64,000 nucleotides of DNA, from contig NC_014962.1 in assembly GCF_000186345.1 (NCBI RefSeq), forward strand, positions 3,066,450-3,130,449, in the 5' to 3' direction. The notes under the pieces are model-generated. The model saw nothing but the letters and a program-made list of their open reading frames with translations. It did no database searches and was not told the DNA's origin. Made by a program: the position numbers and the translations under genes. The stretch's first letter is position 1. Each line of letters begins with the position of its first letter. This document shows, piece after piece, positions 4,714-59,982 of the stretch. Source of the stretch: Isosphaera pallida ATCC 43644. GTDB taxonomy: Bacteria; Planctomycetota; Planctomycetia; Isosphaerales; Isosphaeraceae.

Positions 4714-6420
4714 TCACCAGCTTCCGGTGACAGTGAACACCCTGATGAGGGCCAGACGCTGGCGAAGGACCGCGCGGCGTGTCTGCTCGGCGACATCGGC
4801 GAAGTTGCGCAGGGTGGCCAAATAGCTCAAGGGGTCGCGCTCGCCGTCAATCACGAGGCGAAGCACGTCGCGGCGCGCTAGATCAAGCTCCCCTAATCCA
4901 TCGAGCAGTTCCTGGGCAACTGAGACCGCCACGTTGTATTCACGGAAGGCTTGTTCGACTTCCAGGTCAACCTGACGCTCCAGCGCGACCAACTCGGCGC
5001 GTGCTTGGTCCAAGGTTGTCAGAGCGCGGGAAATGTTGCCCTGGTTGCGGTTGAAGAGAGGCAGTGGAATCGACAACCCTAATAGAAACGATCGGGCACT
5101 GAGATCACCGAAGGGAGCGTTGTCCTGATAGACGAGCGGATCATAGGCGAATTCCCAGTTGGGCACCCCGTTGGCGCGTTCCAGATCCACCTGAGCGCGA
5201 GCCTGCTCCACGGCGATCCGCCGGGCGATCAGGTCGGGGCGTCGCTCGGCGGCCAGAGCCCGAAGGGTGGCGAGATCGGCGATGGGGGTTGGTTCCACCA
5301 AGAGGGGACCCCGCGGGGTGGTCAGTGGATCCAGCGCGTCGGGATCGGCGTTCGGATTAGAATCACTCGGCCGACCGAGCAATCGATTGAGGCGGCGCTG
5401 GGTTTGAATCAACTCCACGCGACTGGATTCCCGGGCAGCCTCGGCGGCGCGACGATCGACTCGCGCGGCCAGACGGTCGGCCCGCGTCGCTTCGCCTTGT
5501 TCGAATTGAATCTCAAGCAGACGTTCGGCTTGCATGGTCTGATCGAATCGAACTTGGGCCAGATTGGCCGCCGCGCGCGCTCCCAACACCTCGACGAAAG
5601 CGGTCGCGGTTTGATCCAAGGTCAAGCGAACCCGATCGAAATAGACCGCCTCGGCCAGTCGCACCCCCTCTTGAGCCACGCCGATGCGAGCGAACCGCTT
5701 GCCGGAGGGGTCCAGAGGCAACCGCAACCCCAGACGATACTCCGTCTGACCGCCGGGCCTTTGGTCGCTGAAACGTTCGTAGGGAATCAGATCGGTCTGA
5801 AATCCCAAAGTCGGGTTGAGTCGCAGCGAGGCGGTCACCAGATCGGCTTGGGCACGCGGCAATTCCAGACGAGCCGCCGCCAGATCGGGGTTGAAATTGC
5901 CCGCCCACTCCAACGCCTGATCCAACGTCAAACCGACTTCCGGGCCAGGATCCTCCAGAGCCTGTCGGGGATCTTCGAACCGTTCGAGCAAAACGCCCCG
6001 CGACGATCGAGCCTGACGTGGCGATTCGGCAACCACGATGGGAGGCTCGTCCTCGATCGCCAACGCTTCGGGCGGCGACTCGCTTCCCAAAAGCGACGGC
6101 GGAAGCGACGCAACCTCCTCGCATGGCTCTTGGCGATCGGCTTCGCCCACTCCGATCTCCTGCCCCACCGAATCGTCCACACTCTCGAACGCCTTGGCGT
6201 GCCCTTCAGCCAACCGGGAATGAAACACCGGGGGAGCCGCCAACACCGTTCGTTCGACTCGACGATCCCCCGCCGACCCTCCCAGACACCAAGTCAACAT
6301 CCACCCCAAGCCAATCCCCGCCAGACCTATGAGGCGGCCCATCCGCACCAGGCGCTTGGTTCGCGGTCGCTCGAAACCAGATTCCAGCTGAGCGTGAAAC
6401 TCCCTGAGTGAAGCGACCAT
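4714..6420 (-). CDS. TolC/CzcC-type outer-membrane efflux protein
   Basis: Forms the outer-membrane channel and periplasmic tunnel of tripartite efflux pumps. The C-terminal about 420 residues have the twin outer-membrane-efflux repeats: LDQALEWAGNFNPDLAAARL opens the first, and heptad-rich helices with QARAQVDLERANG and a membrane strand near FLLGLSIPLPLFNRNQGN lie in the second. A hydrophobic segment follows a basic N-terminus. The ATG at 6420 is chosen because AAGGGA lies upstream; a TTG at 6546 would add 42 unconvincing residues. A 100-residue acidic linker between anchor and channel is unusual. No adaptor or pump gene is adjacent; HlyD-type proteins occur 47-50 kb away. Confidence 0.88.
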   Translation of the reverse strand: MVASLREFHAQLESGFERPRTKRLVRMGRLIGLAGIGLGWMLTWCLGGSAGDRRVERTVLAAPPVFHSRLAEGHAKAFESVDDSVGQEIGVGEADRQEPCEEVASLPPSLLGSESPPEALAIEDEPPIVVAESPRQARSSRGVLLERFEDPRQALEDPGPEVGLTLDQALEWAGNFNPDLAAARLELPRAQADLVTASLRLNPTLGFQTDLIPYERFSDQRPGGQTEYRLGLRLPLDPSGKRFARIGVAQEGVRLAEAVYFDRVRLTLDQTATAFVEVLGARAAANLAQVRFDQTMQAERLLEIQFEQGEATRADRLAARVDRRAAEAARESSRVELIQTQRRLNRLLGRPSDSNPNADPDALDPLTTPRGPLLVEPTPIADLATLRALAAERRPDLIARRIAVEQARAQVDLERANGVPNWEFAYDPLVYQDNAPFGDLSARSFLLGLSIPLPLFNRNQGNISRALTTLDQARAELVALERQVDLEVEQAFREYNVAVSVAQELLDGLGELDLARRDVLRLVIDGERDPLSYLATLRNFADVAEQTRRAVLRQRLALIRVFTVTGSW

Positions 6421-6620
6421 TCGTAAAGTCCCTTGAAACCCTGTCTCAACCCACGATGCGACACGCCAGCCTAATCTCAGCCCAAGCTCGAACACAACGA
6501 GGCAGGAACGCTCGCCGTGCGGCCACCTATTTGGTGTTGTCGGCAAAATTCAACCAACCGCTTCAACTAAACCTCATCGGTGTCGGTTCGACATTTCGTT
6601 TCTTACTTCGAGTGAACCCC

Positions 6621-45571: not shown

Positions 45572-48070
45572 ATGCGTCATGTGATGGTTCAAACGCTCGA
45601 TTTGCGTGGTGGTTGTGATTGGCGTTGGTGGGAGATGGGATCGTCTCCTCGGCGTTTTTCATGGTGGGTGATTTCCACGGTGCTGATGGTTGGAGTGGGG
45701 GCGGGGGTGACGTTGCCGGTTGGTGCTCAAGAACAACCCGCGCTGGAACCAACCAAGACACGCGACGAAGCGACCCCCGAGCAAAAAGCCGAGGAGGCGC
45801 TGCGGGCCGGTCACTCGATCCACGGCGAGGTCTTCAACGCTGGCCCGCGCCGGGCGGCCCGACTCATGGAGGGTCAGGGGACCGTCGAATTCGACCGCGA
45901 CACGCCCGCCGATGCCGCTCATCCCGAAATCAAGGCATTCATCAATCAGGGGGTGGCTCAGCTTCACACCTTCTTCTATTTGGAAGCGGAGCGTTCGTTT
46001 CGCCAGGCGGCCAAGCTTGATCCCGACCGCGCGATCGCCTATTGGGGGATGGCGATGGCCAACATCGAGAACCCTGACCGAGCCCGCGGGTTTCTGGAAC
46101 AGGCCCGCCGTCCTGAGCGTTGGAACAAGGCGTCAAAACGCGAGCAAATGCACATTGAGGCCTTTGCTGCTCGGATGGACAAGGACCTAGCGAACAATCC
46201 CAAGGAGGCGCATCGGCGTTGGATCAAGGGGTTGGAGGCGATCGTCGAGGCGTACCCCGACGACCTGGACGCGCTAAGTTGGATCGCGCTAGCGGTCTGG
46301 CGGGGCGAGTCGTCCGACGGGGTCGGCAGCCGCCACGCGGTCGATCGCTTGCTGGAGGAGGTGTTGGAGGCTCGTCCCGACCATCCCGGCGCGTTGCATT
46401 ATCGAATCCATTTGTGGGACGAAGCCAAACCCGAGCGAGCGTTGTCAGCCGCGCCGCGCTATGGTCCGGCGGCCCCGGGGATCGCCCACGCCTGGCACAT
46501 GCCCGGCCACATTTACTCGAAGTTGCACCGTTATGACGACGCGACGTTTCAGCAGGAAGCCTCAGCGCGGGTCGATCACGCCTACATGATCCGCGACCGA
46601 GTGATGCCGTTCGAGATTCATAACTACGCGCACAACAATGAATGGTTGGCAAAAAACCTGTTGTTCCAGGGGCGGACGCGGGAGGCGATCGCGGTGGCGC
46701 GCGACCTGTTCGACCAGCCCCGCGACCCTGAGCTCAACCATCCCGGCAAAGCCTACTGCGCTCGCAACCTGGGCCAGACCCGCTGGCTTCAAGCGTTGTC
46801 CTGGTTTGGTCTTTGGGACCAGTTCCGAGCCGCGGACGCCCAGGGACTCTTCGAGTGGTCCGACACGCCGGAGGACCGTCTCAAGCGGCTGTCGCACCGG
46901 GGCCGCGCCGCAGCGGCGCTGGGCGACGCGACCGAGCTTGATCGACAGATCGACGAAGTGAAAAGCGAACTGATTCGGACGCTGGACGAGGAACTGGCCA
47001 AGGCGCGACGGGAGAAGGAGGCGGCCGAGGCCGAGGCTCAGGGTGTGGACAAGCCGCCCCCGTCGGCTCCCGAAGTCCGGGCGGAGGGACTCAAGCCGAT
47101 CCCGCGGGCGAGCCTGGAGGGGTTGCTCGCCGAGTTGGAGGGGTGGCGGTGGTTGGCTCGGGGCGACCGCGCCGCGGCGTTGGCGCGGTTCGAGGCGGCC
47201 AGCGAGATGAGGTCGGTCGAGAAAGCCCGGGCGTTGGCGGCTTGCGGAGCGGTCGAACGGGCGATCGAGACGATCGGCCACACGGTGGCCACGTCGCCCA
47301 ACGAAGTGGTCCCTCTGGCGGCTCAAGTCGAGCTTCTGGCCGACGCTGGGCGGATCGACGAGGCGAAACAGGCCTGCGCCGCCCTGCTCGCGCTGGCTCG
47401 GCGCGCCGACGAGGATTGGCCGGCGTTGATTCGTATTCGTCGGATGGCCCAGACCTGGGGGGTCGAGGTTGGCCCAACGCCTTCGGGTCCCTACCCGCCC
47501 GAGCGGTTCGACCTCAACCAGCTGGGGCCGCTGACCTGGCAACCATTCCCCGCCGAAGAGATCGCGCTGCCCGACACCGAAGGCGTCACCTGGAGGTTGT
47601 CCGACCACCGGGGGCGGTTCTTGGTTCTGTTGTTTTACCTGGGCATGGACTGCGCCCATTGCATGGAGCAATTGCGGCTCTTCGGTCAGCACCACGAGGC
47701 GTTACGCGAATTGGGGGCCGACGTGGTAGGAATCTCCACCGACGACACGGCCCGCACCCGAGCACTCAAGCACAACAAAGATGGCGTGGCCTTTCCCATG
47801 ACCTTGTTGGCCGACCCGGAGTTGAAGACGTTTCGGGCCTTGACGGCCTATGATGATTTCGAAGACCAACCGTTGCACGCGATTGTTTTGGTGGACCCTC
47901 ACGGCGCGGTGCGTTACCTGAAGGTGTCGGCCGATCCGTTCCTCGACGTCGCATTCGTCAAGCGAGAACTTGAGCGGTTGGCTCGCTTGGAGCGAGTCCG
48001 AAACGCCGACCACGCAGCCTCCGCAACTCCCCCGGCCGCCTTGGGCCAAGTGGCAGGCTGCGGTAAGTGA
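45572..48070 (+). CDS. Exported TPR protein with C-terminal redoxin (AhpC/TSA-like) domain
   Basis: An 832-aa protein. A signal peptide near residues 22-52 (MGSSPRRFSWWVISTVLMVG...) puts it in the periplasm; translation may really begin at this Met22. Residues about 110-600 are TPR-like helical repeats (FINQGVAQLHTFFYLEAERS, FRQAAKLDPDRAIAYWGMA). The C-terminal about 160 residues form a thioredoxin-fold domain with LFYLGMDCAHCMEQLRLFG, in the place where peroxiredoxins have the active Cys, here as C-x-x-C. A thiol-disulfide or peroxide role is likely. The pairing of TPR and redoxin is a planctomycete-type fusion; the substrate is not known. A helical, charged insert (KARREKEAAEAEAQG) lies between the parts. 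Confidence 0.86.
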   Translation: MRHVMVQTLDLRGGCDWRWWEMGSSPRRFSWWVISTVLMVGVGAGVTLPVGAQEQPALEPTKTRDEATPEQKAEEALRAGHSIHGEVFNAGPRRAARLMEGQGTVEFDRDTPADAAHPEIKAFINQGVAQLHTFFYLEAERSFRQAAKLDPDRAIAYWGMAMANIENPDRARGFLEQARRPERWNKASKREQMHIEAFAARMDKDLANNPKEAHRRWIKGLEAIVEAYPDDLDALSWIALAVWRGESSDGVGSRHAVDRLLEEVLEARPDHPGALHYRIHLWDEAKPERALSAAPRYGPAAPGIAHAWHMPGHIYSKLHRYDDATFQQEASARVDHAYMIRDRVMPFEIHNYAHNNEWLAKNLLFQGRTREAIAVARDLFDQPRDPELNHPGKAYCARNLGQTRWLQALSWFGLWDQFRAADAQGLFEWSDTPEDRLKRLSHRGRAAAALGDATELDRQIDEVKSELIRTLDEELAKARREKEAAEAEAQGVDKPPPSAPEVRAEGLKPIPRASLEGLLAELEGWRWLARGDRAAALARFEAASEMRSVEKARALAACGAVERAIETIGHTVATSPNEVVPLAAQVELLADAGRIDEAKQACAALLALARRADEDWPALIRIRRMAQTWGVEVGPTPSGPYPPERFDLNQLGPLTWQPFPAEEIALPDTEGVTWRLSDHRGRFLVLLFYLGMDCAHCMEQLRLFGQHHEALRELGADVVGISTDDTARTRALKHNKDGVAFPMTLLADPELKTFRALTAYDDFEDQPLHAIVLVDPHGAVRYLKVSADPFLDVAFVKRELERLARLERVRNADHAASATPPAALGQVAGCGK

Positions 48071-48411
48071 AGCAAAGCCAGCGCAGGAAGCCGCTCGGGT
48101 TGTGAAGAATGCGGCTGTGAATCGACATCGCGACGGTCGGGAGACTTCGACTCGGATCGCTGTTCCGATTCGGACGTTCCGTCGCCATATTGAAAGGGAG
48201 GTTTTGGAGACGTCGGCTTCAACCCCATGACCCGAAAAGGCGAGAGAGCATTCCAGGACGCTGTTGCGGAGCAGGTTTCCAAGGCGGGAGGTGGTGAAGA
48301 CCAAGACGGCCGTTTACAATCGAACCAAGCGGAAAACGGAGTCAGGTGGGGTGGCTTTCCGAGGCGGTTCGAATTCACGTCGAGAGGGGACGGTGGATTT
48401 CCCCGGCATCA
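48071..48411. other. Intergenic spacer
   Basis: No gene was accepted. The kinase gene frame is open into this spacer but lacks family character before the triple ATG at 48412. Confidence 0.4.
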
Positions 48412-50655
48412 ATGATGATGGACGCAGCGGAAGCGAAGCGGACGATTGCCGCGCTGCCGCACCCTGGCGAGGTTCCCCCGCGCAGTGGGTTGGGTATGAC
48501 CTGCGACGAGCTGGTTGAGTCACTGGAGCGATTGGGTCTGGCCCCCGGCGGCGCGGCGCGGGCGGCATGGGAGGATGTCCGTATCCGTTTAGCGAGTTCG
48601 CGGCTTCGAGAAGAGGCCGGCACTGATTCCGACCTTCCCCCCGCCCACACCGACCCAAGCGACGACCCGCTTGAGGCCACTTTACGCGAGTTGCAACGCC
48701 GAGGCTGGCTAACGCCGTATCAAGCCCGTTTGATCGTCGAAGGTCGGATGAGCGAACTTGCGCTGGATGACTACATCATCCTCGACGAGTTGGGCCGCGG
48801 CGGCATGGGACGGGTTTACAAGGCCCAGCACCGTCTGATGAAGCGGGTGGTGGCGCTCAAGACCTTGTATTCGAATTTGTTCGAGTCCGAGTTGGCCGTC
48901 CGCCGCTTCCTCACTGAGGTCGAGGCCCTGAGCCGGATTCAGCACCCCAACGTGGTGACCGCCTTCGATGCCCGTCGTCATGGCGAGTCGTTTTATTTGG
49001 TCATGGAGTACGTGGACGGGATCAACCTTCAGGATCTGGTCAAATCCCAGGGGCCCCGTCGCGCTCCCCAGGCGGTTCATTTCCTGCTCCAGGCAGCGCG
49101 GGGATTGGACCAGGCTCACCAACTTGGGATCATTCACCGCGACGTGAAGCCGGGCAACCTGTTGGTGAATCGGGAAGGGGTGGTCAAGATTCTCGACCTC
49201 GGGTTGGCGCGAATGACCCAGAATGCCTCGGGAACAATGACCCATCCCTCAACCTCGCATCTGGGTACCCCCGACTACAGCGCGCCGGAACAATTTAGCG
49301 ACCCTCGGGGCGTGGACGAACGCTCCGACGTGTACAGTCTGGGCTGCACGTTGTATTACCTGACCACCGGGTTGCATCCTTACGGCGACCGCGAGACGGT
49401 GATGCTCAAGATGTACGCCCACTGCTCGGCTCCGATCCCTTCGATCCGGGCGGTGTCACCCGGAGCGCCGGCGGCGTTGGATGAGCTGCTCAAGACGATG
49501 ATGGCCAAAGATCCCGCGGACCGCCCGCCGTCGATGGCGGCGTTGATCCCTCGTTTGGAGGCGATTCTCGACGAACTGTCGGCGACCGACACGGGGGTGC
49601 GTCCGCTGCTTTCCAGCGGCTCGGGCGAATCGGCGGCGATTGGGACGTTGGGCACTGGCGGCGAGGGTGCGGCGGTCGGCGGCGGGGTGGTGGGAGGCGG
49701 TTTCAAGTCGGCGGCCTCCTCAGGGATCGTCCGAGCGCTTTCTTCTCAAACGCCCCCCCGCAAGCCGCGAACCGAGCGTCCCACCTCGCCCGCCACCGCC
49801 TCGCAAGCCACCTCTTCAGGCGGAGGCGGCGGCCCCTCCTCGCCGCGCACGCCCCCCAAACTGGAGACCCGGACCAACAGCCTGGGTCAGACGCTCGCCC
49901 GCGTCGAACCTCGGATGTTCACCTTCGGCGCGTGTCCAACCGATCGTCAGGCTCAGCCCGAGGAAAAGCCGCCCCACCCGATCTTGATCCTCCAGCCCTT
50001 CGAGGTGGCTCAGACTCCGGTGACCCAAGCGCAGTTTCGCCACGTGATGGGAAGCGACCCGGTGCCGTCCGGGTTGCGTTGCGACGAGGCTCCGGTGGTG
50101 GGCGTCACCTGGTGGGATGCCGTCGAGTTTTGCAACGCCCTCAGTCGGATCGAGGGACTGACTCCGTTTTACACCTTCACCGAGGATGGCCGCTGTCGGA
50201 TCATGGACTTCTCGGCCAATGGCTACCGTCTGCCCACCGAGGCGGAGTGGGAGTTCGTGGCTCGGGCCGGGCGTCAGACGATCTACATCTGGGGAGGTTC
50301 GCCCGAACCGGCGCTCGCCGACGCGCATTGCTGGCACGCGGGCAACACCGCCTCCGATCCCCGTCCCCATCCGGTCGGCCACAAGGCTCCCAATCTCTGG
50401 AGCCTCTTCGACCTTTGCGGCAACACCTGGGAGTGGTGTTGGGATCTGTTCGACCCGACCTGGTTCGCCCGTCGCGCAGCCGACCGGGCCTACCACGACA
50501 CGGGCGGCCCCCGTCAAGGGACGCATCGGGTGACCCGGGGCGGCTCGTTTCGCTCGCTCATGGATGATCTGCGTCTGAGCCGCCGCGAGCCACGCGACCC
50601 CAACAACGCCTTTGACGATGTTGGGTTCCGGGTGGTTCGTAACCTGGGTACCTGA
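48412..50655 (+). CDS. Ser/Thr kinase fused to a formylglycine-generating-enzyme (FGE/SUMF1) domain
   Basis: A 747-aa fusion. The kinase domain lies in about residues 115-385: LGRGGMGRVYKA, lysine in VVALKTL, HRDVKPGN, and DLG in place of DFG (KILDLGLARM). A disordered Ser/Pro/Gly linker follows. The C-terminal about 230 residues form an FGE-sulfatase-type fold: GVTWWDAVEFCNAL, NGYRLPTEAEWEFVARAG, LWSLFDLCGNTWEWCWD, RGGSFRS and DVGFRVVR. FGE-fold proteins include formylglycine-generating enzymes and many non-catalytic ligand-binding domains; here the active Cys pair is not evident, so ligand binding is more likely. No TM helix. Begins the same-strand cluster that ends at 57.9 kb. Confidence 0.92.
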   Translation: MMMDAAEAKRTIAALPHPGEVPPRSGLGMTCDELVESLERLGLAPGGAARAAWEDVRIRLASSRLREEAGTDSDLPPAHTDPSDDPLEATLRELQRRGWLTPYQARLIVEGRMSELALDDYIILDELGRGGMGRVYKAQHRLMKRVVALKTLYSNLFESELAVRRFLTEVEALSRIQHPNVVTAFDARRHGESFYLVMEYVDGINLQDLVKSQGPRRAPQAVHFLLQAARGLDQAHQLGIIHRDVKPGNLLVNREGVVKILDLGLARMTQNASGTMTHPSTSHLGTPDYSAPEQFSDPRGVDERSDVYSLGCTLYYLTTGLHPYGDRETVMLKMYAHCSAPIPSIRAVSPGAPAALDELLKTMMAKDPADRPPSMAALIPRLEAILDELSATDTGVRPLLSSGSGESAAIGTLGTGGEGAAVGGGVVGGGFKSAASSGIVRALSSQTPPRKPRTERPTSPATASQATSSGGGGGPSSPRTPPKLETRTNSLGQTLARVEPRMFTFGACPTDRQAQPEEKPPHPILILQPFEVAQTPVTQAQFRHVMGSDPVPSGLRCDEAPVVGVTWWDAVEFCNALSRIEGLTPFYTFTEDGRCRIMDFSANGYRLPTEAEWEFVARAGRQTIYIWGGSPEPALADAHCWHAGNTASDPRPHPVGHKAPNLWSLFDLCGNTWEWCWDLFDPTWFARRAADRAYHDTGGPRQGTHRVTRGGSFRSLMDDLRLSRREPRDPNNAFDDVGFRVVRNLGT

Positions 50656-50941
50656 CGCAGCTGGCCCACGGCGGGTTTCCACCAGGAGCTGGGCCAGACG
50701 CCGTAGGGTCTGAAGCCGCCTGATCCGGGAATTCCGCCGATCTGAATCCGATCGGCAAGAGACCAGCCGAAAAACGGTCGGGAACTCACCGCGTCGAGCC
50801 GTCCCGATTGAAAATGAGGAGAGCCGAGGCCGCTCTCTTGCCCGCCCGCGCGACCCGGACCATGAATCGCGGTTCCGACGGAGGCGGGGAGGCGGCTCCA
50901 TCCCCGGCCCAGCCCCATTCCGTCGGCGGAGCGACCCAGTC
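50656..50941. other. Intergenic spacer
   Basis: Just under 300 bases between the kinase-FGE and GAF-HlyD genes; no gene, repeat or terminator was recognised. Confidence 0.4.
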
Positions 50942-53191
50942 ATGGCCGAAGACACGATCGACAAGAATCTGCTTGAGGAAACCAAGAGCCGCATCCGGAC
51001 GCTCGTGGCCGAGATCGCCGCCTTGGCCGAGGAGGATATTCAGCCCAGCGAATTCCACCCCGAGTTCCTCAGCCGGGTGGTCGAGTCGTTGGCCGCGACC
51101 GCCGGGGCCATCTGGATGCTCGATGGTCGGGGCGGTCTGCGGCTCCAGCACCATCACCAGTTCGAGGTCACCGGTCTGCTCAGCGGGCGGGGCCGCACTC
51201 CAGAACACAATGCGCTTTTAACCTGCCTGTTGCAATCCAACCAGGCGTTGGCGGTTCCTCCGGGGGCGACGGTCGAGGGTCAGCCCAACGCCGCTAATCC
51301 CACCGGCTTTGTGTTGATCATCGCCCCCTTGATTGTGGATCGTCAGGTGGTCGGGCTGGTCGAAGTGGTCATGGACCCCAACCGCAAGGCCGCCACTCAG
51401 AAAAGCACCCTGCGGTTCGTCTCGGACCTGTGCGACCTAGCGGCCAAGTACCTCCGCAACCGCCAGATTCGCCAAATCATGCTCCAGCAACAGACCTGGA
51501 GCCAACTGGAGGCATTCACCCAGTCGATCCACCAGTCGCTCGACCTCAAGGAAACCGCCTACGCCGTGGTCAACGACGGCAAGCGGCTCATCGGCTGCGA
51601 CCGGGTCAGCGTCGCGCTCAAACTGGCCGGCCGCGTCGCGGTCGAAGCGGTCAGCGGTCAAGAAGTCGTTGAACAACGCTCCAACCAGATCCGCGAACTC
51701 AACAAACTTTGCAAAGCGGTCATCGCCTCCGGCGAAGACCTGGTTTACACCGGCGAAACCGAAGGCTTCCCGCCCGAGGTCCGTGACGCTCTGGAAGTCT
51801 ACGTGGACGAATCCGGCTCCAAGGGCCTGGTCATGGTCCTGCTTTACAAGCCGGAGACCGACAAGACCAAGGATAAAGTCCCCTTCGGCGTCGTCATCGC
51901 CGAACAAATTGGCGACCACGGCCCGCTCACCGAGATTCAGGCCAAGCTCGAAGTGGTGGCCCGCCACGCCTCCTCCGCACTTTGGAATGCCCAGGAATAT
52001 GATAAGATTTTCCTGCGTCCTATGCTCAAGTCGCTGGGGGCGCAAGCCCGGTTACTCCGAGGCCGCACCTGGGCCAAGATCGGCGTGGCAGTGGGAATGG
52101 TGATCGCTGCCATCCTAGCCATGGCGTTGGTGCCGTGGACGCTGACGGTGCAAGGCGATGGCTCGCTCCTGCCCGAAATTCGCCGCACCCTGCACGCTCC
52201 GCTGCAAGGCATTGTGTCGGAGGTGTTGGTCGAACACGGTCAAGAAGTCAAAGCCGGCGATGTGGTGCTTCGGATGTTCAACCGAGAACTCGACAAGGAG
52301 TCCAAACGGCTGATCGCCGAAAAGAACTCCGCCGATGCTGACCAGTTGCGGTTGTCCCGCCAGGTCAGTGACCCTTCGGTGCGTCCCGAAGAGCGACGCC
52401 GCATCCAGGCCGAACTTGAAGAGGCCAAGATTCGCTCCGAAGGAGCGGCCCGTCAGTTGGAGGTGATCGCCGAGCAGGAGGAGTCGTTGACGATCCGGTC
52501 ACCGATCGACGGCATCGTGACTACCTGGGAAGTCAAGAAGACCCTGCTCAACCGCCCGGTGGACATCGGCCAGGAACTCATCCAGATCGCCGACAAAGGC
52601 GGCCCGATCAACCTGGAGGTCCAGATTCCCGACGACGACATGGCCCCGGTCCTGGAAGCCCGCAACCGTCTCTTGACGCAGATGGCCACTCGTTTGGAGG
52701 AGCTGCGTGCCGCCTTCCAACGCGGCGCGCTCAGCGGTGAGGATCTGGAGGCAGCCCGTCTGGAGGCCGACATCCTGGAGCGCGAGATCCGGCTCAATCA
52801 GGGAGGGCTGTCTGACGAGGAGCTCGAAGGGATTCTGGAGATGTCCCAACAGGCCCGCGCTCGCCTCCGGGAGATGGGCCGCACCCCGCCCTCGACTCGC
52901 CTGCCGGCCTACTTCGTCACCGCGACCGACCCCTCGCACCGTTATCAGGGCGAAGTGGTCCGCATCGCCTCGCGGGCCGAACTGGTTGACCAAACCCACA
53001 TGGTCAAGGTCACCGTCGGCTTCAGTCCCGAGGTCCGCGCCGAGTTTCTCGAACTCAACCAGGACTTCCGTCCCGGCGCAGGGGTCCGCGCGGGCATCAA
53101 GTGCGGCAAGGCGCGGTTGGCCTACTGCCTGTTCCGCGATGTGGTCCACCTCTGGTACGAGACGGTGTTGTTCCGCTGGCCGTTCCTCTGA
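50942..53191 (+). CDS. GAF-GAF-TM-HlyD membrane protein
   Basis: A 749-aa fusion of unusual make-up. The cytoplasmic N-terminus has two GAF-like domains (about 40-170, with TGFVLIIAPLIVDRQVVGLVEV; about 195-355, with LIGCDRVSVALKLAG and PFGVVIAEQIGDHG). One TM helix (378-398) precedes a periplasmic HlyD-type membrane-fusion part: lipoyl-like half HAPLQGIVSEVLVEHGQEVK, a coiled-coil hairpin, and SPIDGIVTTWEVKK. The shape suggests a sensor (GAF) coupled through the membrane to an adaptor that docks on an exporter. It is followed by an HlyD protein and an M50-HlyD fusion; no ABC ATPase or TolC is nearby. Start: ATG with no strong SD. Confidence 0.86.
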   Translation: MAEDTIDKNLLEETKSRIRTLVAEIAALAEEDIQPSEFHPEFLSRVVESLAATAGAIWMLDGRGGLRLQHHHQFEVTGLLSGRGRTPEHNALLTCLLQSNQALAVPPGATVEGQPNAANPTGFVLIIAPLIVDRQVVGLVEVVMDPNRKAATQKSTLRFVSDLCDLAAKYLRNRQIRQIMLQQQTWSQLEAFTQSIHQSLDLKETAYAVVNDGKRLIGCDRVSVALKLAGRVAVEAVSGQEVVEQRSNQIRELNKLCKAVIASGEDLVYTGETEGFPPEVRDALEVYVDESGSKGLVMVLLYKPETDKTKDKVPFGVVIAEQIGDHGPLTEIQAKLEVVARHASSALWNAQEYDKIFLRPMLKSLGAQARLLRGRTWAKIGVAVGMVIAAILAMALVPWTLTVQGDGSLLPEIRRTLHAPLQGIVSEVLVEHGQEVKAGDVVLRMFNRELDKESKRLIAEKNSADADQLRLSRQVSDPSVRPEERRRIQAELEEAKIRSEGAARQLEVIAEQEESLTIRSPIDGIVTTWEVKKTLLNRPVDIGQELIQIADKGGPINLEVQIPDDDMAPVLEARNRLLTQMATRLEELRAAFQRGALSGEDLEAARLEADILEREIRLNQGGLSDEELEGILEMSQQARARLREMGRTPPSTRLPAYFVTATDPSHRYQGEVVRIASRAELVDQTHMVKVTVGFSPEVRAEFLELNQDFRPGAGVRAGIKCGKARLAYCLFRDVVHLWYETVLFRWPFL

Positions 53192-53255
53192 TCCCCAGCG
53201 CGACCCCGACCCGCGTTCGATTGGACCGACCCGCTCGAACCAGTCGCGCCGCGTC

Positions 53256-53305
53256 CAACTCAACGCAACTCAACCTAACCTAAACCAAGCTAACCCAACC
53301 CAATC
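53256..53305. repeat. Degenerate pentamer repeat, CAAC(T/G/C)
   Basis: Five tandem units CAACT-CAACG-CAACT-CAACC-TAACC run into imperfect copies up to about 53305, in the spacer before the HlyD gene. They occur about 100-150 bases before that gene's start codon. Confidence 0.7.
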
Positions 53306-53402
53306 CAGTCGAATCGTGTGGAATCCGACCCCGGCACTACGCCCCGCCTCTCTTCTTGAACTCCATCGCTTCCTCTTCCTCCAGCCGCGAGGTTGAACCG
53401 CC

Positions 53403-54551
53403 ATGAAGACACGTCCCGCCATGTGGACGTCGCGGGTTGCGACCCGACCGCTCCCGACTGTTGTCCCAACGACGGCCCGGTTGATCCCAACGCGGCCGGT
53501 TGGTGCCGTGGTCCTGGTGTTGACGCTGGCCGCGGCCACGACGGTTTCGGCTCAGGACCGCACGGCGGGACGTCCGTCGTCCCCCGCTCCATCCCGCTCG
53601 GACCCCTCGTCCGCGAAGATTGTCGAGGTGCGCGACGCCCAAATCGAATACCTGTTGGTCTCCAATGTCGCGGCCCGCCGCGACGGGGTGGTCGAGTCGA
53701 TCGAGTTGAGCGAAGGAGCCGAGGTCAAGAAAGGGGAACCGATCGGCTATCTGTACAGCGACCTCGCTCGCCTGGCCCGCGATCGCGCTAAGATTCAGGC
53801 CGAAAGCGAAGTGCCCCGCTACAAGGCCGCGGCCAAATACCGCTTCGCCAAGGCCGAACTCGACCGCACCCGCGAACTGGCCCGCATCCGCCCCGACGCG
53901 GTCCCCAAGGCCGAACTCGAAGAAAAGCAGGCCAGCGTCGATATCGCCACCGCCGAGACCTACGAAGCCGAGGAAACCATCAAGATCGCCAAGAAGGAAT
54001 ACGAGTTGGCTGAAAAGACGCTGGAGGAACACATCATCATCGCGCCCTTCGACGGATTCATCGTCGAACGACTCAAGAAGCCCGGCGAACAGGTTCACGC
54101 CAACGAACCGCTGGTGAAACTGGCCAACCGAGACAAACTGCGCGTCTTCGCCTACGTCCCACTGGAAAGCTCCTACAAAATCCGTCTGGGCGACACGGTC
54201 GAAATCAAGGTCAACCTCCCCGAGGGAGTCGGGCCCGGCGGCCGAGTTTTCCCAGGCAAAATCACATTCATTGATGAAGAGGTCGTCACCGTGGGTGAGA
54301 GGAGCCGACGAATTTACGCCGAGGTGGATAATCGCTCAACCAACTATCAGCTGAGCCCTGGTTTACCCATCTCGATGATCATTCGGCCCGGCACCGCCCA
54401 GTTGGGCCAAACAACCGTGTTGGAGCGTCCCGACTTGGACGAGGCCACGCGTGCGGCCTCGGTTGAAGCCCAAGTCAAGCCGACCGCGGCCGAATCATCG
54501 AAACCAACGACGATTCCGCCCCCGGTGCGCAACCGTCCTCGGGGAGGCTGA
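53403..54551 (+). CDS. HlyD-family periplasmic adaptor (membrane fusion protein)
   Basis: A 382-aa periplasmic adaptor. An N-terminal signal or anchor runs to about residue 44 (VLVLTLAAATTVSA). The lipoyl-like half motif is RRDGVVESIELSEGAEVKKG, then a coiled-coil hairpin rich in Lys, Glu and Ala, then IIAPFDGFIVERLKKPGEQV and a beta-barrel part with FAYVPLESSYKIRLGD. This is the RND/HlyD adaptor pattern. It is expected to bridge an inner-membrane component to an outer-membrane channel. It lies between the GAF-HlyD and M50-HlyD genes on the same strand, so all three may form one machine. Confidence 0.9.
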   Translation: MKTRPAMWTSRVATRPLPTVVPTTARLIPTRPVGAVVLVLTLAAATTVSAQDRTAGRPSSPAPSRSDPSSAKIVEVRDAQIEYLLVSNVAARRDGVVESIELSEGAEVKKGEPIGYLYSDLARLARDRAKIQAESEVPRYKAAAKYRFAKAELDRTRELARIRPDAVPKAELEEKQASVDIATAETYEAEETIKIAKKEYELAEKTLEEHIIIAPFDGFIVERLKKPGEQVHANEPLVKLANRDKLRVFAYVPLESSYKIRLGDTVEIKVNLPEGVGPGGRVFPGKITFIDEEVVTVGERSRRIYAEVDNRSTNYQLSPGLPISMIIRPGTAQLGQTTVLERPDLDEATRAASVEAQVKPTAAESSKPTTIPPPVRNRPRGG

Positions 54552-54760
54552 GCGGGGACGACTACGCTTCGCCGCCCGAGGGGGGGCGATTATTCAAGAC
54601 GACAAAGCTCCGCTTCGTTCCGCATGGGTTGGCGTGGGGATTTGCTTCGGCTCGTGCGACATCCTGGAGGCGGTTCCCATGATCCTCCGCCGGGCCGGGG
54701 GAATACCAGTCCAGTTTGTTTTGATTCACCTTTTGATCGCTGTGGCATGGAGTGGTGCGG

Positions 54761-54785
54761 CGTGACGTAGCGTAGCGTGGCGTGG
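54761..54785. repeat. Pentamer repeat, CGT(G/A)(A/G)x5
   Basis: Five units (CGTGA, CGTAG, CGTAG, CGTGG, CGTGG) lie about 65 bases before the M50-HlyD start codon. A poly-G run of 8 follows. Confidence 0.8.
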
Positions 54786-54850
54786 GGGGGTGCCGACCCG
54801 CGCGCCAGGGCCACCGATCCCGCCGCGACCCCGTGTGAGGTCCTGACTCA

Positions 54851-57034
54851 ATGAGCGGATTCCCAACCCAGGCTCCCGCCGGCGGTCAGGCCGCCGAACA
54901 TCTGGTTCTCAAATTGCGCAAGGATCTCGTGATCCGTCCGGTCGCCTACGAGGGGGTCACCCACCAGGTGGTCAAGGATCCGATCGCTCTGAAATATTTT
55001 CGGTTCAAGCAGGAGGAGTTTTTCCTGCTGGAACAGATGGACGGCCAACAGACCCTTCAGGACATCAAGAGGGCCTTCGAGTCCAAATACAAGCCGCAAA
55101 CGATCTCGATGGAGGACCTGGTCCGGTTTGCCTCTCAGCTTCACGAAGCCGGGCTGGTCCAGGTGGACACCGAGGAGCAAGCTCAGGTTCTCATCAAACG
55201 CCGCCGCAAACGGCTCTGGAAGAAGTTGGGCCAGTTCTTCGCCAACATCCTGTTCGTCAAGATTCCGCTCATCGACCCCGAGCGGTTGCTGACCTGGATG
55301 TACCCGTATTTCCGCTGGATGTTCACCACCTGGTTCGTCACCTTCTCCGTCGGCTTGATGTTGGCGGCCCTGACGCTGGTGGTCACCCAGTATCACACCT
55401 TCTACGCGAAGCTGCCGACCTTCGAGAGCTTCTTCAATTGGTGGACGCTTTTCTATTTTTGGATCAGCCTAGCGGTGGTTAAGGTGATCCACGAGTTCGG
55501 CCACGGCCTGACCGCCAAACACTTCGGCGGTGAAGTCCATGAAATGGGTGCGTTGCTCTTGGTCTTTACCCCCGCGCTGTATTGCGACGTGACCGACAGC
55601 TGGCTGTTGCCCAACAAATGGCACCGGATTTGGATCTCCGCGGCCGGCATCTTTGTGGAACTCTTGCTGGCCTCGATCGCCACCTTCGTCTGGTGGAACG
55701 CCTCGGAAGGCCTGGTGAAATCGTTGGCGATGTCCACGATGTTCATCTGTTCGATCAACACGATTCTCTTCAATGCCAATCCGTTGCTCCGGTACGACGG
55801 CTACTACGTCCTGTCGGATTGGCTGGAGATTCCCAACCTGCGGATCAAGGCGACCCAGTTCTTCGCCTACCTGATTCAGGATAAGGTGCTGGGGTTGGAG
55901 ATTCCGGTGCAAAGCTACCTGCCCCGGTCGAGGCGGGCGCTGTTCGTCTCGTATGCGGTGTTGAGCTATCTGTACCGCTGGTTCATCACCTTCAGCATCC
56001 TGTTCTTCCTCTACCAATTCTTGAAGCCCTACGGTCTTCAGTCGATTAGCGCGACGCTAGCGGTGCTGTCGTTGATCCCGCTGTTGGGGCTGCCGCTTTA
56101 CAAAATCATCAAGTGGGCGATCACGCCGGGGAGGCTGCGGAAGATGAAAAAGAAACGGGCCGCTGCCTACGCGGGCGGCTTGGTGGCGATCGTCACCCTA
56201 ATCCTGCTGATTCCCACCCCCTTGCGGGTCTCAGGCACCTTCGTGTTGACGCCGGCCAACCCCACCCGGGTTTACGTCGAGGTCCCCGGCCGTCTCGAAT
56301 CCCTCGAGGCGCGCGACGGTGATTACGTCGAGGAGGGACAGCTTTTGGCCCGGCTCTCCAACAAGGAAAAGCTCAAAGACCTGCTCGACCTTCAACTTCA
56401 ACATGACATTCAGTTGGTTCGCTATAACGCCAACAGCCGGATCAACGACAACATCTCCCGCGCCTTGGCGATCCAAGCCCAGCAATACGCCATCGACCTG
56501 GAGCGTCCCTTGGAGCGGATCACCGAGGAACTCGGCAAACTCCAGATCGTCGCGCCGACCTCCGGTGTGGTGATGGGGCTGCCCCACCGGGAAATCACCG
56601 GGCCTTACGGCAGGTATCTCGAACCCGGCCCGTTTTGCGAGATCGGCGACCCCAAACACTTGGAAGCCCGCCTGATCCTGGACCAGTCCGACCTGGAACT
56701 CATCCGCAAGGGCAACCGCGCCTGGGTCAAAGTTTACGGCAAGTCGCATGTCACCTACGTGAGTCAGGTCAAAGACATCACGGAACGCAACCTCGACGAG
56801 ATTCCCCCCGAACTCTCCAACCTGGCCGGAGGCGAGGTGGCCACCGAGATCAATCCCGAGACCGGCCAGGCTAAGCCGATCAGCGCTGTGTTCGAGGTGG
56901 TCATTCCCGTTGATAACCAGGATCTGAGCCTTCAGGTCAACTCGCGGGGCTTCGCCAAGATCGACGCCGGCTACGCGCCACTTTACTGGTGGCTGTATCG
57001 GGTCATCGCCCAAACCTTCAACTTCACCTTATAA
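54851..57034 (+). CDS. PqqD-like/M50 metalloprotease/HlyD fusion protein
   Basis: A 727-aa fusion in three parts. Residues 25-105 are a PqqD-like winged-helix domain (HQVVKDPIALKYFRFKQEEF). Residues 130-455 hold several TM helices with the zinc motif HEFGH (214-218) of the site-2-protease (M50) family and the downstream NPLLRYDGYYVLSDWL, where the Asp completes the zinc site. The last 270 residues are an HlyD-type hairpin and lipoyl-like region (PGRLESLEARDGDYVEEG). Related proteins are annotated as putative peptide zinc metalloproteases and are linked to RiPP-like peptides. No precursor peptide, radical-SAM enzyme or ABC ATPase was found here. The chosen ATG follows the previous gene by 299 bases. 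Confidence 0.9.
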   Translation: MSGFPTQAPAGGQAAEHLVLKLRKDLVIRPVAYEGVTHQVVKDPIALKYFRFKQEEFFLLEQMDGQQTLQDIKRAFESKYKPQTISMEDLVRFASQLHEAGLVQVDTEEQAQVLIKRRRKRLWKKLGQFFANILFVKIPLIDPERLLTWMYPYFRWMFTTWFVTFSVGLMLAALTLVVTQYHTFYAKLPTFESFFNWWTLFYFWISLAVVKVIHEFGHGLTAKHFGGEVHEMGALLLVFTPALYCDVTDSWLLPNKWHRIWISAAGIFVELLLASIATFVWWNASEGLVKSLAMSTMFICSINTILFNANPLLRYDGYYVLSDWLEIPNLRIKATQFFAYLIQDKVLGLEIPVQSYLPRSRRALFVSYAVLSYLYRWFITFSILFFLYQFLKPYGLQSISATLAVLSLIPLLGLPLYKIIKWAITPGRLRKMKKKRAAAYAGGLVAIVTLILLIPTPLRVSGTFVLTPANPTRVYVEVPGRLESLEARDGDYVEEGQLLARLSNKEKLKDLLDLQLQHDIQLVRYNANSRINDNISRALAIQAQQYAIDLERPLERITEELGKLQIVAPTSGVVMGLPHREITGPYGRYLEPGPFCEIGDPKHLEARLILDQSDLELIRKGNRAWVKVYGKSHVTYVSQVKDITERNLDEIPPELSNLAGGEVATEINPETGQAKPISAVFEVVIPVDNQDLSLQVNSRGFAKIDAGYAPLYWWLYRVIAQTFNFTL

Positions 57035-57148
57035 TCCGACGCTCGACGCTCTTGTGAGCTAAGGAGGAAGGGCCTGGTTCCATCGGGTGGGATCGCTCTC
57101 CCTCTTTCGTCCCCATGACGCCGTCCTCGTCGGTGCCTTGCGCGTTCC

Positions 57149-57170
57149 GAGAAGAGAAGAGAAGAGAAGA
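57149..57170. repeat. Pentamer repeat, (GAGAA)x4
   Basis: Four perfect GAGAA units plus GA, 15 bases before the start codon of the next gene. Because they are purine-rich they overlap the region where a ribosome-binding site would lie. Confidence 0.85.
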
Positions 57171-57184
57171 CGAGTTCCCACCCC

Positions 57185-57880
57185 ATGAGTGATTCTCCGT
57201 CCGCGAGTCGCTCCCGCTTGGAATTGACCCGCGCCGGCTGGCCGGTCCTGGTGGCGCTTGAGCCAGCGAAGTCAGGGTCGGTCCGCCGCTTGGAGTGGAA
57301 CGGGCGATCACTAGCTTGGTCGCTGACTCCACCGGAGACCTCCGACAATGAGCCGGTTCCTGTGATCCAGGAGGCTCGGCTGGAACACATGGGCGAAGAT
57401 TGCCCGGTCCTGCTCGGTTTGGGGGTCTCCGCCCGTCGCCATTACTCGCTGAGTATCGAAGCCCGACTCGATTCGACTGACGGCCACGCCGCGGTGTTCG
57501 AGTGCGACCTAGCGGCGCGGGGTGCCTCGGGACCCCTGGCCGACACCTGGGTCTGCGGTCTGAATCCCACCGACTTGATCGAGACCGGATCTTCACGGAT
57601 CGCCTGGCGGCTCGCCGAAGGAGCCGAAGTCGTTCTGGAGGTGGAGGAGACCGACGACCCCAAGGCGACGCTCGCCATCGGCGAGGCCGGCCGCACCGGC
57701 TGGTTGATTCAGGTGACGCGGTTTGGCGAAGTCGCCTCAGTTGGCACCCGCCCCGTCACCACCCGTCTGCGTTACCGCTGGCGTGTGATCCTCTCACAAG
57801 CGCGCTCTTGGAAGGTCTTCCATCCCAATCCAATGCGGGATCGAATCTGTTTCGGCAATTCCGATTCGACCCGATCCTGA
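57185..57880 (+). CDS. Hypothetical protein downstream of the M50-HlyD gene
   Basis: A 231-aa protein with no signal peptide or TM helix. The chain alternates strands and turns (RRHYSLSIEARLDSTDG, GWLIQVTRFGEVASVGTRP), which suggests a beta-sandwich. I do not recognise the family and see no catalytic motif. It follows the M50-HlyD fusion by 150 bases on the same strand and converges on the NYN gene. A repeat of GAGAA units lies where its ribosome-binding site should be, so its translation may be variable. Confidence 0.65.
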   Translation: MSDSPSASRSRLELTRAGWPVLVALEPAKSGSVRRLEWNGRSLAWSLTPPETSDNEPVPVIQEARLEHMGEDCPVLLGLGVSARRHYSLSIEARLDSTDGHAAVFECDLAARGASGPLADTWVCGLNPTDLIETGSSRIAWRLAEGAEVVLEVEETDDPKATLAIGEAGRTGWLIQVTRFGEVASVGTRPVTTRLRYRWRVILSQARSWKVFHPNPMRDRICFGNSDSTRS

Positions 57881-57900
57881 CCGGCTGGGCTGGCTTCAGC

Positions 57901-58785
57901 TCACCGTGGCGACCGTCCCCCGCGGCGATGTGGGGAAATGGAGGCCGCGTCGGCGGTTGCGTCCGCCACGGCGCGTGTTCGGGTCAATCGGGTGGATTTT
58001 CCCTGACCCTCCTCCAACGGGCCGAACCGGGTCACCATGTAGGTGCCGCTGCGGGGGTTACGCTCGATGTCCACCACCGAATTGTCGTCGGCGTCCTCCA
58101 GCAAGTGGGTGAAGCTCCGATAACCGTAATACGATTCGTCGAACGACGGCTTCTTGCGTTTCATGGTGTCCTTGATCATCGAGGCGTACAGCACTTCGTG
58201 ATTTTCGCGCCGCAGCGCCGCACAAGCCTCGATAAGGAGAATGAACGCCTCGCGTTTGCGTTCGGGCAAATCGGCGAACAGTTCGGTGACGAGTTGTTCA
58301 TCCTGTTCTTGACGTTCGAGGTCTTCGTAATAGATAAATTCGTCGCAATTGTCGCGGAGCAGTTCGGAGGTGGAGCCTTTCATGCCCAGGCCAATGACGT
58401 GCTTGCCGTTTTCTTTGAGTTTGGAAACCAGGGGGGAGAAGTCGGAGTCTCCCGAGACAATAACGAAGGTGTCGACATGGGGCTTGGACCAGGCGAGGTC
58501 CATCGCGTCGACGACCAGGCGGATGTCGGCGGAGTTCTTGCCGGTCTGGCTGCGTCGGGGGATTTCGATGAGTTCGATGGCCGCCTCGTGAAATGGGGCG
58601 GTGTAGGCTTGGTAGCGGTTCCAGTCGGCGTAGGCTTTCTTGACGATCAGCTTGCCCTTCTCGACCAGACGTTCCAACACCTTGTGGATTTCGAAGCGGG
58701 CCTTCTTCTGGTTTTGGAACCCCATAGCGAGGTTTTCCAGATCGACGAAGACAGCGAGGTTGCGGTCGTGTTCGGGCTTGGTCAT
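57901..58785 (-). CDS. NYN-domain (LabA/DUF88-type) protein with OST-HTH/LOTUS-like domain
   Basis: A 294-aa protein of the PIN-like NYN family, predicted ribonucleases. The acidic residues are in AVFVDLENLAMG, in the VVDAMDLAW strand and in IVSGDSDFSPLVSKLKENGK, followed by GKHVIGLGMKGSTSELL. The C-terminal third (IKDTMKRKKPSFDESYYGYRSFTHLLEDA) fits the winged-helix OST-HTH/LOTUS fold that binds RNA. Start: the ATG at 58785 is preferred over the one at 58836. The tail is Arg-rich and disordered. An RNA-processing role is inferred, and no partner is visible. Confidence 0.85.
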   Translation of the reverse strand: MTKPEHDRNLAVFVDLENLAMGFQNQKKARFEIHKVLERLVEKGKLIVKKAYADWNRYQAYTAPFHEAAIELIEIPRRSQTGKNSADIRLVVDAMDLAWSKPHVDTFVIVSGDSDFSPLVSKLKENGKHVIGLGMKGSTSELLRDNCDEFIYYEDLERQEQDEQLVTELFADLPERKREAFILLIEACAALRRENHEVLYASMIKDTMKRKKPSFDESYYGYRSFTHLLEDADDNSVVDIERNPRSGTYMVTRFGPLEEGQGKSTRLTRTRAVADATADAASISPHRRGGRSPR

Positions 58786-59114
58786 CGGGGGCGTTCCATC
58801 GCTTCGATGTGTTGCGGGATGAAGGTCCGCAGTCATAACATGAAGCGGTTGGATAGGTTGGGGCGCGGCGAGCCGTGTTCATTGGCGGCTCGGAGCGAGC
58901 GCGCGCTCACACCGGGGACTCTACCAGCCCCGCAATGTTCCGGCAATGTTCCAGGCCGTCAACCCCGGTCATGGAGCACACGCCGGAACCCCTGCCATCC
59001 TGATGCCGAAACGCAGTGGTTGGGTTAAAATCTCCCGCTGGAGTCGATCCCTTCTCTTGATCTCGAATCGCGGACCCAGCGGCCTCCCTAACGCGGTTCC
59101 ATCCATCCCAAAGC

Positions 59115-59978
59115 GTGAGACCCCCGCCGTTGCCCAACGAGACCCGCATCGTCTGGACCACCGACATCCACTTGAACTTCGTGGACGCCGAGACCCTGTT
59201 GGGGTTCTGTCAGTCGCTGCGCGACGCCCAGGCCGCCGCGGTGGTGATCTCGGGCGATATCTCCGAAGGCAACCGCGTCACCCGCGACCTCGCCGAATTG
59301 TCCCGGCTGATCGAGCGCCCCATCCTGTTCGTGCTGGGTAACCACGACTTCTATCGCGCCGGTCTGGACCAGGTCCGCCGCGAAGTAGGATACTTCACCC
59401 GCGACCATCGTGGGCTGCGCTGGTTGACCGACTTCGGCCCGGTCGGCCTGGGACCTGACGTGGCGGTCATTGGCCACGACGGTTGGGCCGACGGCCGATT
59501 GGGCGATTACAACCGATCCAAGTTGATGCTTAATGATTATCTTCTGATACAAGAGTTCTCCGACTTGTACATCAACCGTGGCATCGACGCTGAGGATCAG
59601 GTCAAGCGGGATCGTTTGGAGTTGCTGCATCGTCTGGGCGATCAGGCGGCCGCGGCGTTGGAGACCAAGCTGCACGACGCTTTGGATCATTTCCGTCGGA
59701 TCGTGCTGGTCACCCATGTTCCTCCCTACCGTCAAGCGTGTTGGCATCGGGGCCGGATCGCCGAGGAGGAATGGCTGCCCCATTTCGGTTGCCGCGCCGT
59801 GGGCGACATGATCGACCGGGTCATGGCCGATCATCCTGACCATCGTTTGACCGTGTTGTGCGGTCATGTGCATTCGGAAGGGGAATACCGTCCTCGGCCT
59901 AACGTCCGTGTTCTCACCGGCGGGGCGACCTATGGAGCGCCTCGGATCAACGGCCTCTTCGACCTCAGCGGATTCTAA
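59115..59978 (+). CDS. Calcineurin-like metallophosphoesterase
   Basis: A 287-aa phosphoesterase with all the metal-site motifs: TDIHLN (D17, H19), SGDISEGN (D48), GNHDFY (N76, H77), VTHVPPY, and CGHVHSEG near the C-terminus. The substrate class is not fixed by these motifs; family members act on nucleotides, phosphodiesters or proteins. There is no signal peptide. The start is GTG. The next gene begins 4 bases after its stop and is probably co-transcribed with it. Confidence 0.9.
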   Translation: MRPPPLPNETRIVWTTDIHLNFVDAETLLGFCQSLRDAQAAAVVISGDISEGNRVTRDLAELSRLIERPILFVLGNHDFYRAGLDQVRREVGYFTRDHRGLRWLTDFGPVGLGPDVAVIGHDGWADGRLGDYNRSKLMLNDYLLIQEFSDLYINRGIDAEDQVKRDRLELLHRLGDQAAAALETKLHDALDHFRRIVLVTHVPPYRQACWHRGRIAEEEWLPHFGCRAVGDMIDRVMADHPDHRLTVLCGHVHSEGEYRPRPNVRVLTGGATYGAPRINGLFDLSGF

Positions 59979-59982
59979 TCGC

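Follow-up and report, generated by a model that had tools for sequence, protein, structure and literature searches.

A conserved planctomycete module of three HlyD-domain proteins, one fused to an M50 protease domain, as the possible core of a SecA-driven exporter

Genes and domains at the locus

The window, the whole stretch of 64,000 nucleotides analysed from Isosphaera pallida ATCC 43644, contains five open reading frames that the first-pass annotation had described as a possible cluster for sensing, proteolysis and export. All five were recovered at their assigned positions on the plus strand, and position 48412 was found to be an in-frame ATG within an open reading frame starting at 48346. 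Positions given without a contig or locus refer to the window.

48346-50655, plus strand: kinase-FGE gene (Pfam kinase, E 5.9e-51; FGE, E 1.3e-45)
50942..53191, plus strand: GAF-GAF-TM-HlyD protein, 749 aa (Pfam, two GAF stretches and HlyD)
53403..54551, plus strand: HlyD/RND-type periplasmic adaptor, 382 aa (Pfam HlyD; TIGR01730)
54851..57034, plus strand: fusion of a predicted RRE/PqqD-like domain, an M50 protease and HlyD, 727 aa (Pfam M50, 1e-8; HlyD, 2e-5)
57185-57880, plus strand: uncharacterised 231-aa protein, zero Pfam matches

Positions 45572-48070, upstream of the kinase-FGE gene, encode a protein of 832 aa that combines TPR-like repeats with an AhpC/TSA redoxin domain at its C-terminus.

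The three central genes are referred to here as GAF-HlyD, HlyD and M50-HlyD. In an AlphaFold2 model of the GAF-HlyD protein (mean pLDDT, 86.8), residues 16-365 resembled the PDE5A tandem GAF domains (Z 19.6), with a MacA-like region at residues 392-727 (Z 15.1). Hydropathy analysis placed a single transmembrane segment at residues 380-398, and hence the GAF domains would be cytoplasmic and the HlyD domain periplasmic. The tandem GAF domains are the one feature that would suggest the coupling to intracellular signals proposed in the first-pass annotation. The HlyD protein passed the RND adaptor model TIGR01730 (110.6 bits against a cut-off of 94.9) and has an N-terminal signal or anchor segment at residues 27-45, as judged from hydropathy. 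PADLOC and PHROGs searches of the three central genes returned nothing beyond a weak match in the HlyD region.

Conservation and linkage of the three genes

Of 149 genomes sampled across the phylum, 32 had a relative of the M50-HlyD protein; within the family itself the figure was 43 of 45 genomes, with mostly 58-66% identity and usually a single copy. Singulisphaera and Tautonia are among the named relatives closest in sequence, which places the window in or near the Isosphaeraceae. Gene neighbourhoods were surveyed at 100 loci (80 named and 20 others). The order GAF-HlyD, HlyD, M50-HlyD on one strand was observed in most of these loci and recurs across planctomycetes, and all three genes were present together in 59 of the 77 loci having at least 4 kb of upstream sequence. 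The concern that the genes might not be neighbours in relatives was thus not borne out, and the three genes with HlyD domains belong together as a conserved module rather than a chance grouping.

Two flanking genes had also been put forward as possible members, and both were excluded. Homologues of the kinase-FGE gene matched through the kinase domain alone, and in no other genome of the family did one adjoin the module. Kinases near the module at other loci were scattered in position and strand, as would be expected because kinases are common (three in the window). The open reading frame at 57185 encodes a real protein, present in 30 of the 45 family genomes, yet it lies away from the module in relatives (for example, 7 Mb from it in genome G149).

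As a genomic observation, the module has been known since 2015, when Kamneva, Poudel and Ward described the same three proteins (M50-HlyD, HlyD/biotin_lipoyl and GAF-HlyD) beside a secondary SecA_DEAD protein without wing and scaffold and, sometimes, a TolC-type channel; in some genomes the partner genes were encoded elsewhere (PMC4452313). The module was read as secretion-related, and it was proposed that SecA supplied the ATPase activity and the M50 protein the pore (PMC4452313). The main text of that paper makes no mention of Isosphaera, of a PqqD or RRE domain or of DUF3467 (PMC4452313). The Isosphaera pallida genome shares with the described module the three genes side by side (here 50942-57034) and a secondary SecA without wing and scaffold that is akin to the module SecAs; an OEP gene is an occasional feature of the loci in both descriptions. 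The locus is a further member of the group in which motor, DUF3467 and channel are unlinked.

The M50-HlyD fusion protein

An AlphaFold2 model of the M50-HlyD protein (mean pLDDT, 82.6) contained, in order, an RRE-like, an RseP-like and a MacA-like domain. The following features were assigned.

54902..55165, plus strand: RRE/PqqD-like domain, residues 18-105 (predicted model against 5v1v and 6jx3)
55490..55504, plus strand: HEFGH zinc/catalytic motif, M50 residues 214-218 (alignments)
55796..55798, plus strand: D316 in the NPLLRYDGY motif, putative third zinc ligand (alignments; site-2 proteases)
56150..57004, plus strand: C-terminal HlyD/MacA-like adaptor domain, residues 434-718 (predicted model against MacA)

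Residues 18-105 of the model matched 5v1v (leader-peptide complex of TbiB1; Z 10.7 over 84 residues, 2.5 A), 6jx3 (lasso B1 protein with leader; Z 10.6) and 5v1u (Z about 10.6). The strand-plus-winged-helix fold of leader-binding domains was found in this predicted model, which supports the presence of an RRE/PqqD-like domain. The Pfam PqqD score was low (16.9 bits, under the cut-off of 23.4). The assignment was retained because of the leader-bound RRE matches and because the NCBIfam daptide protease model NF041824 spans residues 44-408 with an E value of 8.6e-54, at a score (183.1 bits) that is under its cut-off of 300. The YydH/LiaK model NF058609 gave 49.7 bits, under a cut-off of 225.

Residues 192-326 of the model resembled RseP (7w6y; Z 10.2), and both motifs of an M50 site-2 protease, HExxH and NPxxxxDG, were located in membrane helices. 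H214, E215, H218 and D316 were invariant in two alignments (20 and 40 homologues), and D316 may, by analogy with site-2 proteases, be the third zinc ligand. Among 100 M50-HlyD homologues, HExxH was kept in all and NPLxxxDG in 99. The PqqD-like and M50 reading of the first-pass annotation was therefore upheld, with an RRE-like fold in the predicted model and an intact HExxH motif. Residues 434-727 matched MacA chain 9qgy_G (Z 16.9), and the domain also matched 3fpp_A (Z 16.2).

The 2015 proposal has the M50 protein as a pore, whereas retention of the catalytic motif by every homologue points to a functional protease. As a mere pore would not need an invariant catalytic motif, cleavage is likely to be part of the function of the M50-HlyD protein.

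Candidate motor and channel

No ABC ATPase, RND pump or outer-membrane channel was detected by Pfam among the genes between 45572 and 61215, as had been claimed from the sequence. The system is not devoid of a candidate ATPase and channel: the genome has a short SecA and a TolC-type gene outside the cluster, and a secondary SecA and, in some cases, a TolC-type gene occur at homologous loci. No ABC transporter or RND pump occupied a fixed place near the module in the neighbourhoods of relatives; an ABC exporter beside the homologues, which had been raised as a competing explanation of their role, was thus not found as a constant neighbour. The RND pump that stands beside the adaptor in tripartite efflux systems was absent from positions 45572-61215 and had no fixed place in relatives.

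At several homologous loci, the strand of the module also encodes a SecA-type protein of about 650 aa. Fourteen of the 100 loci contained a secondary SecA, and 8 a TolC-type gene. The candidate counterparts in the Isosphaera pallida genome were as follows.

C2:4566350-4568458, minus strand: short SecA, 702 aa, without SecA_SW and SEC-C (domain search)
4714..6546, minus strand: TolC-type outer-membrane factor (OEP, two stretches, E 7e-37)

Two SecA genes are present in this genome, a canonical one with the SecA_SW wing/scaffold and SEC-C domains and the short one, which retains the TGEGKT and DEAD motifs and is situated approximately 1.4 Mb from the three genes rather than in the same locus. 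SecA linkage was not treated as defining for the module because it is variable in the family (PMC4452313). A tree built from 46 SecA rows grouped the short SecA with SecAs linked to the module and further short forms (support 97/87), separate from the canonical clade (96/95); only the split between short and canonical forms is relied upon, since some rows have long branches or odd composition and some module SecAs fall outside the clade. The TolC-type gene at 4714-6546 is unlinked to the module and is one of several candidates for its channel, with several further OEP genes elsewhere in the genome.

A secondary SecA was detected in at least 21 of the 32 genomes with M50-HlyD compared to at least 1 of the 117 without (Fisher p 1e-16, a value that ignores shared ancestry). 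By taxonomic family, the figures were at least 15 of 20 with M50-HlyD and 0 of 57 without among the matches listed. Short SecAs were called by hand, as an open frame of up to about 760 aa with most of the query covered; the 21 genomes comprise 19 found by this rule and two (G030 and G004) recognised by the adjoining module. The rule and these two genomes tilt the counts, which are lower bounds, slightly towards an association; such counting biases are far smaller than the effect itself. In 11 of the 32 genomes with M50-HlyD, several of the genomes being incomplete, there was no secondary SecA by the hand rule among the matches listed.

As a secondary SecA ATPase lies beside the same three proteins (PMC4452313), the energy source of the module is probably the short SecA and not an ABC ATPase. 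Counting against SecA as the motor, the short form is without the part that is thought to engage SecYEG. HlyD-type adaptors and a TolC-type channel as probable partner are shared with type I secretion (HlyB-HlyD-TolC), from which the module differs in that the place of an ABC transporter of the HlyB type is taken by an M50 membrane protein together with a SecA-type ATPase. Peptidase-containing ABC transporters (C39-ABC) combine leader clipping and export in one machine. Their likeness to the module is by analogy alone, as the module has a metallo-M50 and not a C39 peptidase, and a SecA and not an ABC ATPase.

These data bear on two readings that involve no polypeptide export. The adaptors could be an accessory set for RND or ABC pumps encoded elsewhere, for small molecules or metal, with the M50 part a bystander. 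The plain HlyD protein does pass the RND adaptor model, but the neighbourhoods show no pump gene in a constant position, the M50 motif is retained by all homologues and the association is with SecA, a mover of polypeptides; we consider a role in efflux quite improbable. Alternatively, the M50 domain could, as a site-2 protease, cleave a membrane-bound regulator while the HlyD domains merely sense the state of the envelope, with no export. Such a signalling device would be in keeping with the intact HExxH and DG motifs, the RseP-like fold of the predicted model, the GAF sensor domains of the partner protein and the presence of TolC-type genes in just 8 of 100 loci. It would not account for the MacA-like or RND-type adaptor domains of three proteins or for the co-occurrence with a SecA-type ATPase, and no regulator gene recurred at a fixed place by the module among the clustered neighbours. 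Signalling is accordingly rated as unlikely.

DUF3467 as a recurrent neighbour

All open reading frames of at least 60 aa around the module were clustered for the 100 loci. DUF3467 (PF11950), a family of about 120-140 aa, was the sole family to rank ahead of SecA. Of the 100 loci, 29 carried it, and in 28 of these it lay beside the module, within 431 bp and on the same strand, mostly directly after M50-HlyD or directly before GAF-HlyD. Genome-wide, DUF3467 was present in 21 of the 32 genomes with M50-HlyD compared to 7 of the 117 without. The Isosphaera pallida copy is apart from the module, at about C2:4996839-4997273. A relationship to SecB was not supported (hhalign probability of 0.2%, with E. 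coli SecB alone compared), and a PDB profile search with DUF3467 gave a chance match only. The literature searched mentions DUF3467 only in passing, and no link to secretion was found there.

Other than DUF3467, no modifying enzyme or small precursor of at least 60 aa recurred by the module in this clustering. This result concerns the earlier suggestion of a peptide-processing and export system, of which the PqqD-like and M50 reading holds; neither a precursor nor a modifying enzyme for a RiPP pathway was found. In a RiPP system, a small modified peptide would be bound by the RRE, cut by the M50 domain and exported via the adaptors. The relationship of the M50 region to the daptide and YydH/LiaK proteases, with which the module shares an aligned PqqD-like and M50 region (44-408 for daptide) and a leader-binding fold, and the match of the RRE-like N-terminal domain to leader-bound lasso proteins both point in this direction. 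The scores, however, fall short of both cut-offs, at 183 against 300 bits and 49.7 against 225 bits, and the module differs from these proteases in its fused C-terminal HlyD domain and in having adaptors and SecA as partners. Most RiPP clusters are not found in essentially every genome of a family, whereas the module is present in single copy in essentially every genome of this one. RiPP maturation and export is, on this evidence, not a likely function.

A proposed SecA-driven exporter

We lean towards reading the three genes, with modest confidence, as the envelope-spanning core of a SecA-driven, type-I-like exporter of proteins or peptides, in which the substrate would be read and clipped in the membrane. 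The domain make-up, the intact protease and SecA ATPase motifs, the conserved linkage and the genome-wide co-occurrence were established by sequence. Around this core we infer a substrate class and a series of steps. The shortened SecA would push a cytoplasmic substrate to the M50-HlyD protein in the inner membrane, where the RRE/PqqD-like domain would bind its leader and the M50 site would clip it within the membrane. The three HlyD-type adaptors would build a periplasmic duct up to a TolC-type channel, and the tandem-GAF adaptor could gate this duct on a cytoplasmic small ligand. DUF3467 may work at the cytoplasmic face, where it could chaperone the substrate.

Counting against the exporter, SecA, DUF3467 and the channel are all unlinked to the three genes in the Isosphaera pallida genome, and three different adaptors in one system would be unusual for a tripartite duct. 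No experiments on any module member were found in the literature searched. We raise more tentatively, and with some doubt, the suggestion that a SecA without wing and scaffold, a leader-reading protease-adaptor, a ligand-gated adaptor and DUF3467 as a new cytoplasmic subunit make up a distinct secretion system for proteins or peptides.

To the 2015 description, this analysis adds the leader-binding-like domain, the intact protease, the DUF3467 link, the near-universal presence in the family and the exclusion of two flanking genes. If the proposed exporter is correct, a SecA working with type-I-type adaptors and a duct-forming intramembrane protease would be a new route for polypeptides across two membranes. 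Almost all genomes of the family carry the module, which is also widespread in planctomycetes, and the DUF3467 association and the intact protease provide direct, testable handles on its function.

Search for substrates

No substrate or precursor for the module was found, and the output of a tblastx comparison of the window with relatives, run for precursors, was swamped by GC-rich noise. RTX and giant repeat proteins were rejected as substrates: RTX proteins were near the module only in L053 and L157 of the 100 loci, a level close to background, as expected from the RTX genes of the Isosphaera pallida genome. The two RTX-repeat proteins lie by the module at L053:3-6140, with 23 repeats, and at L157:13338-16967. 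Giant open reading frames near other module loci were unrelated or without assignment and were likewise rejected. Putative open reading frames of 2000-2900 aa with zero Pfam matches adjoin the module or a short SecA at L168 (1407-7430), L132 (13467-22181) and L118 (10033-17193).

On the plus strand at L071:3590-8098 (about C2:4561589-4566097), the Isosphaera pallida genome encodes a protein of 1502 aa that has six Calx-beta domains and matches LapA weakly. Its gene and that of the short SecA are convergent neighbours, and the protein could be a substrate, as a single case. In two related genomes, a protein of roughly 1600 aa is encoded beside an unlinked short SecA (L161:11531-16318 and L163:3576-8369); the L161 protein has cyclophilin, cadherin-like, cohesin and matrixin-like matches.
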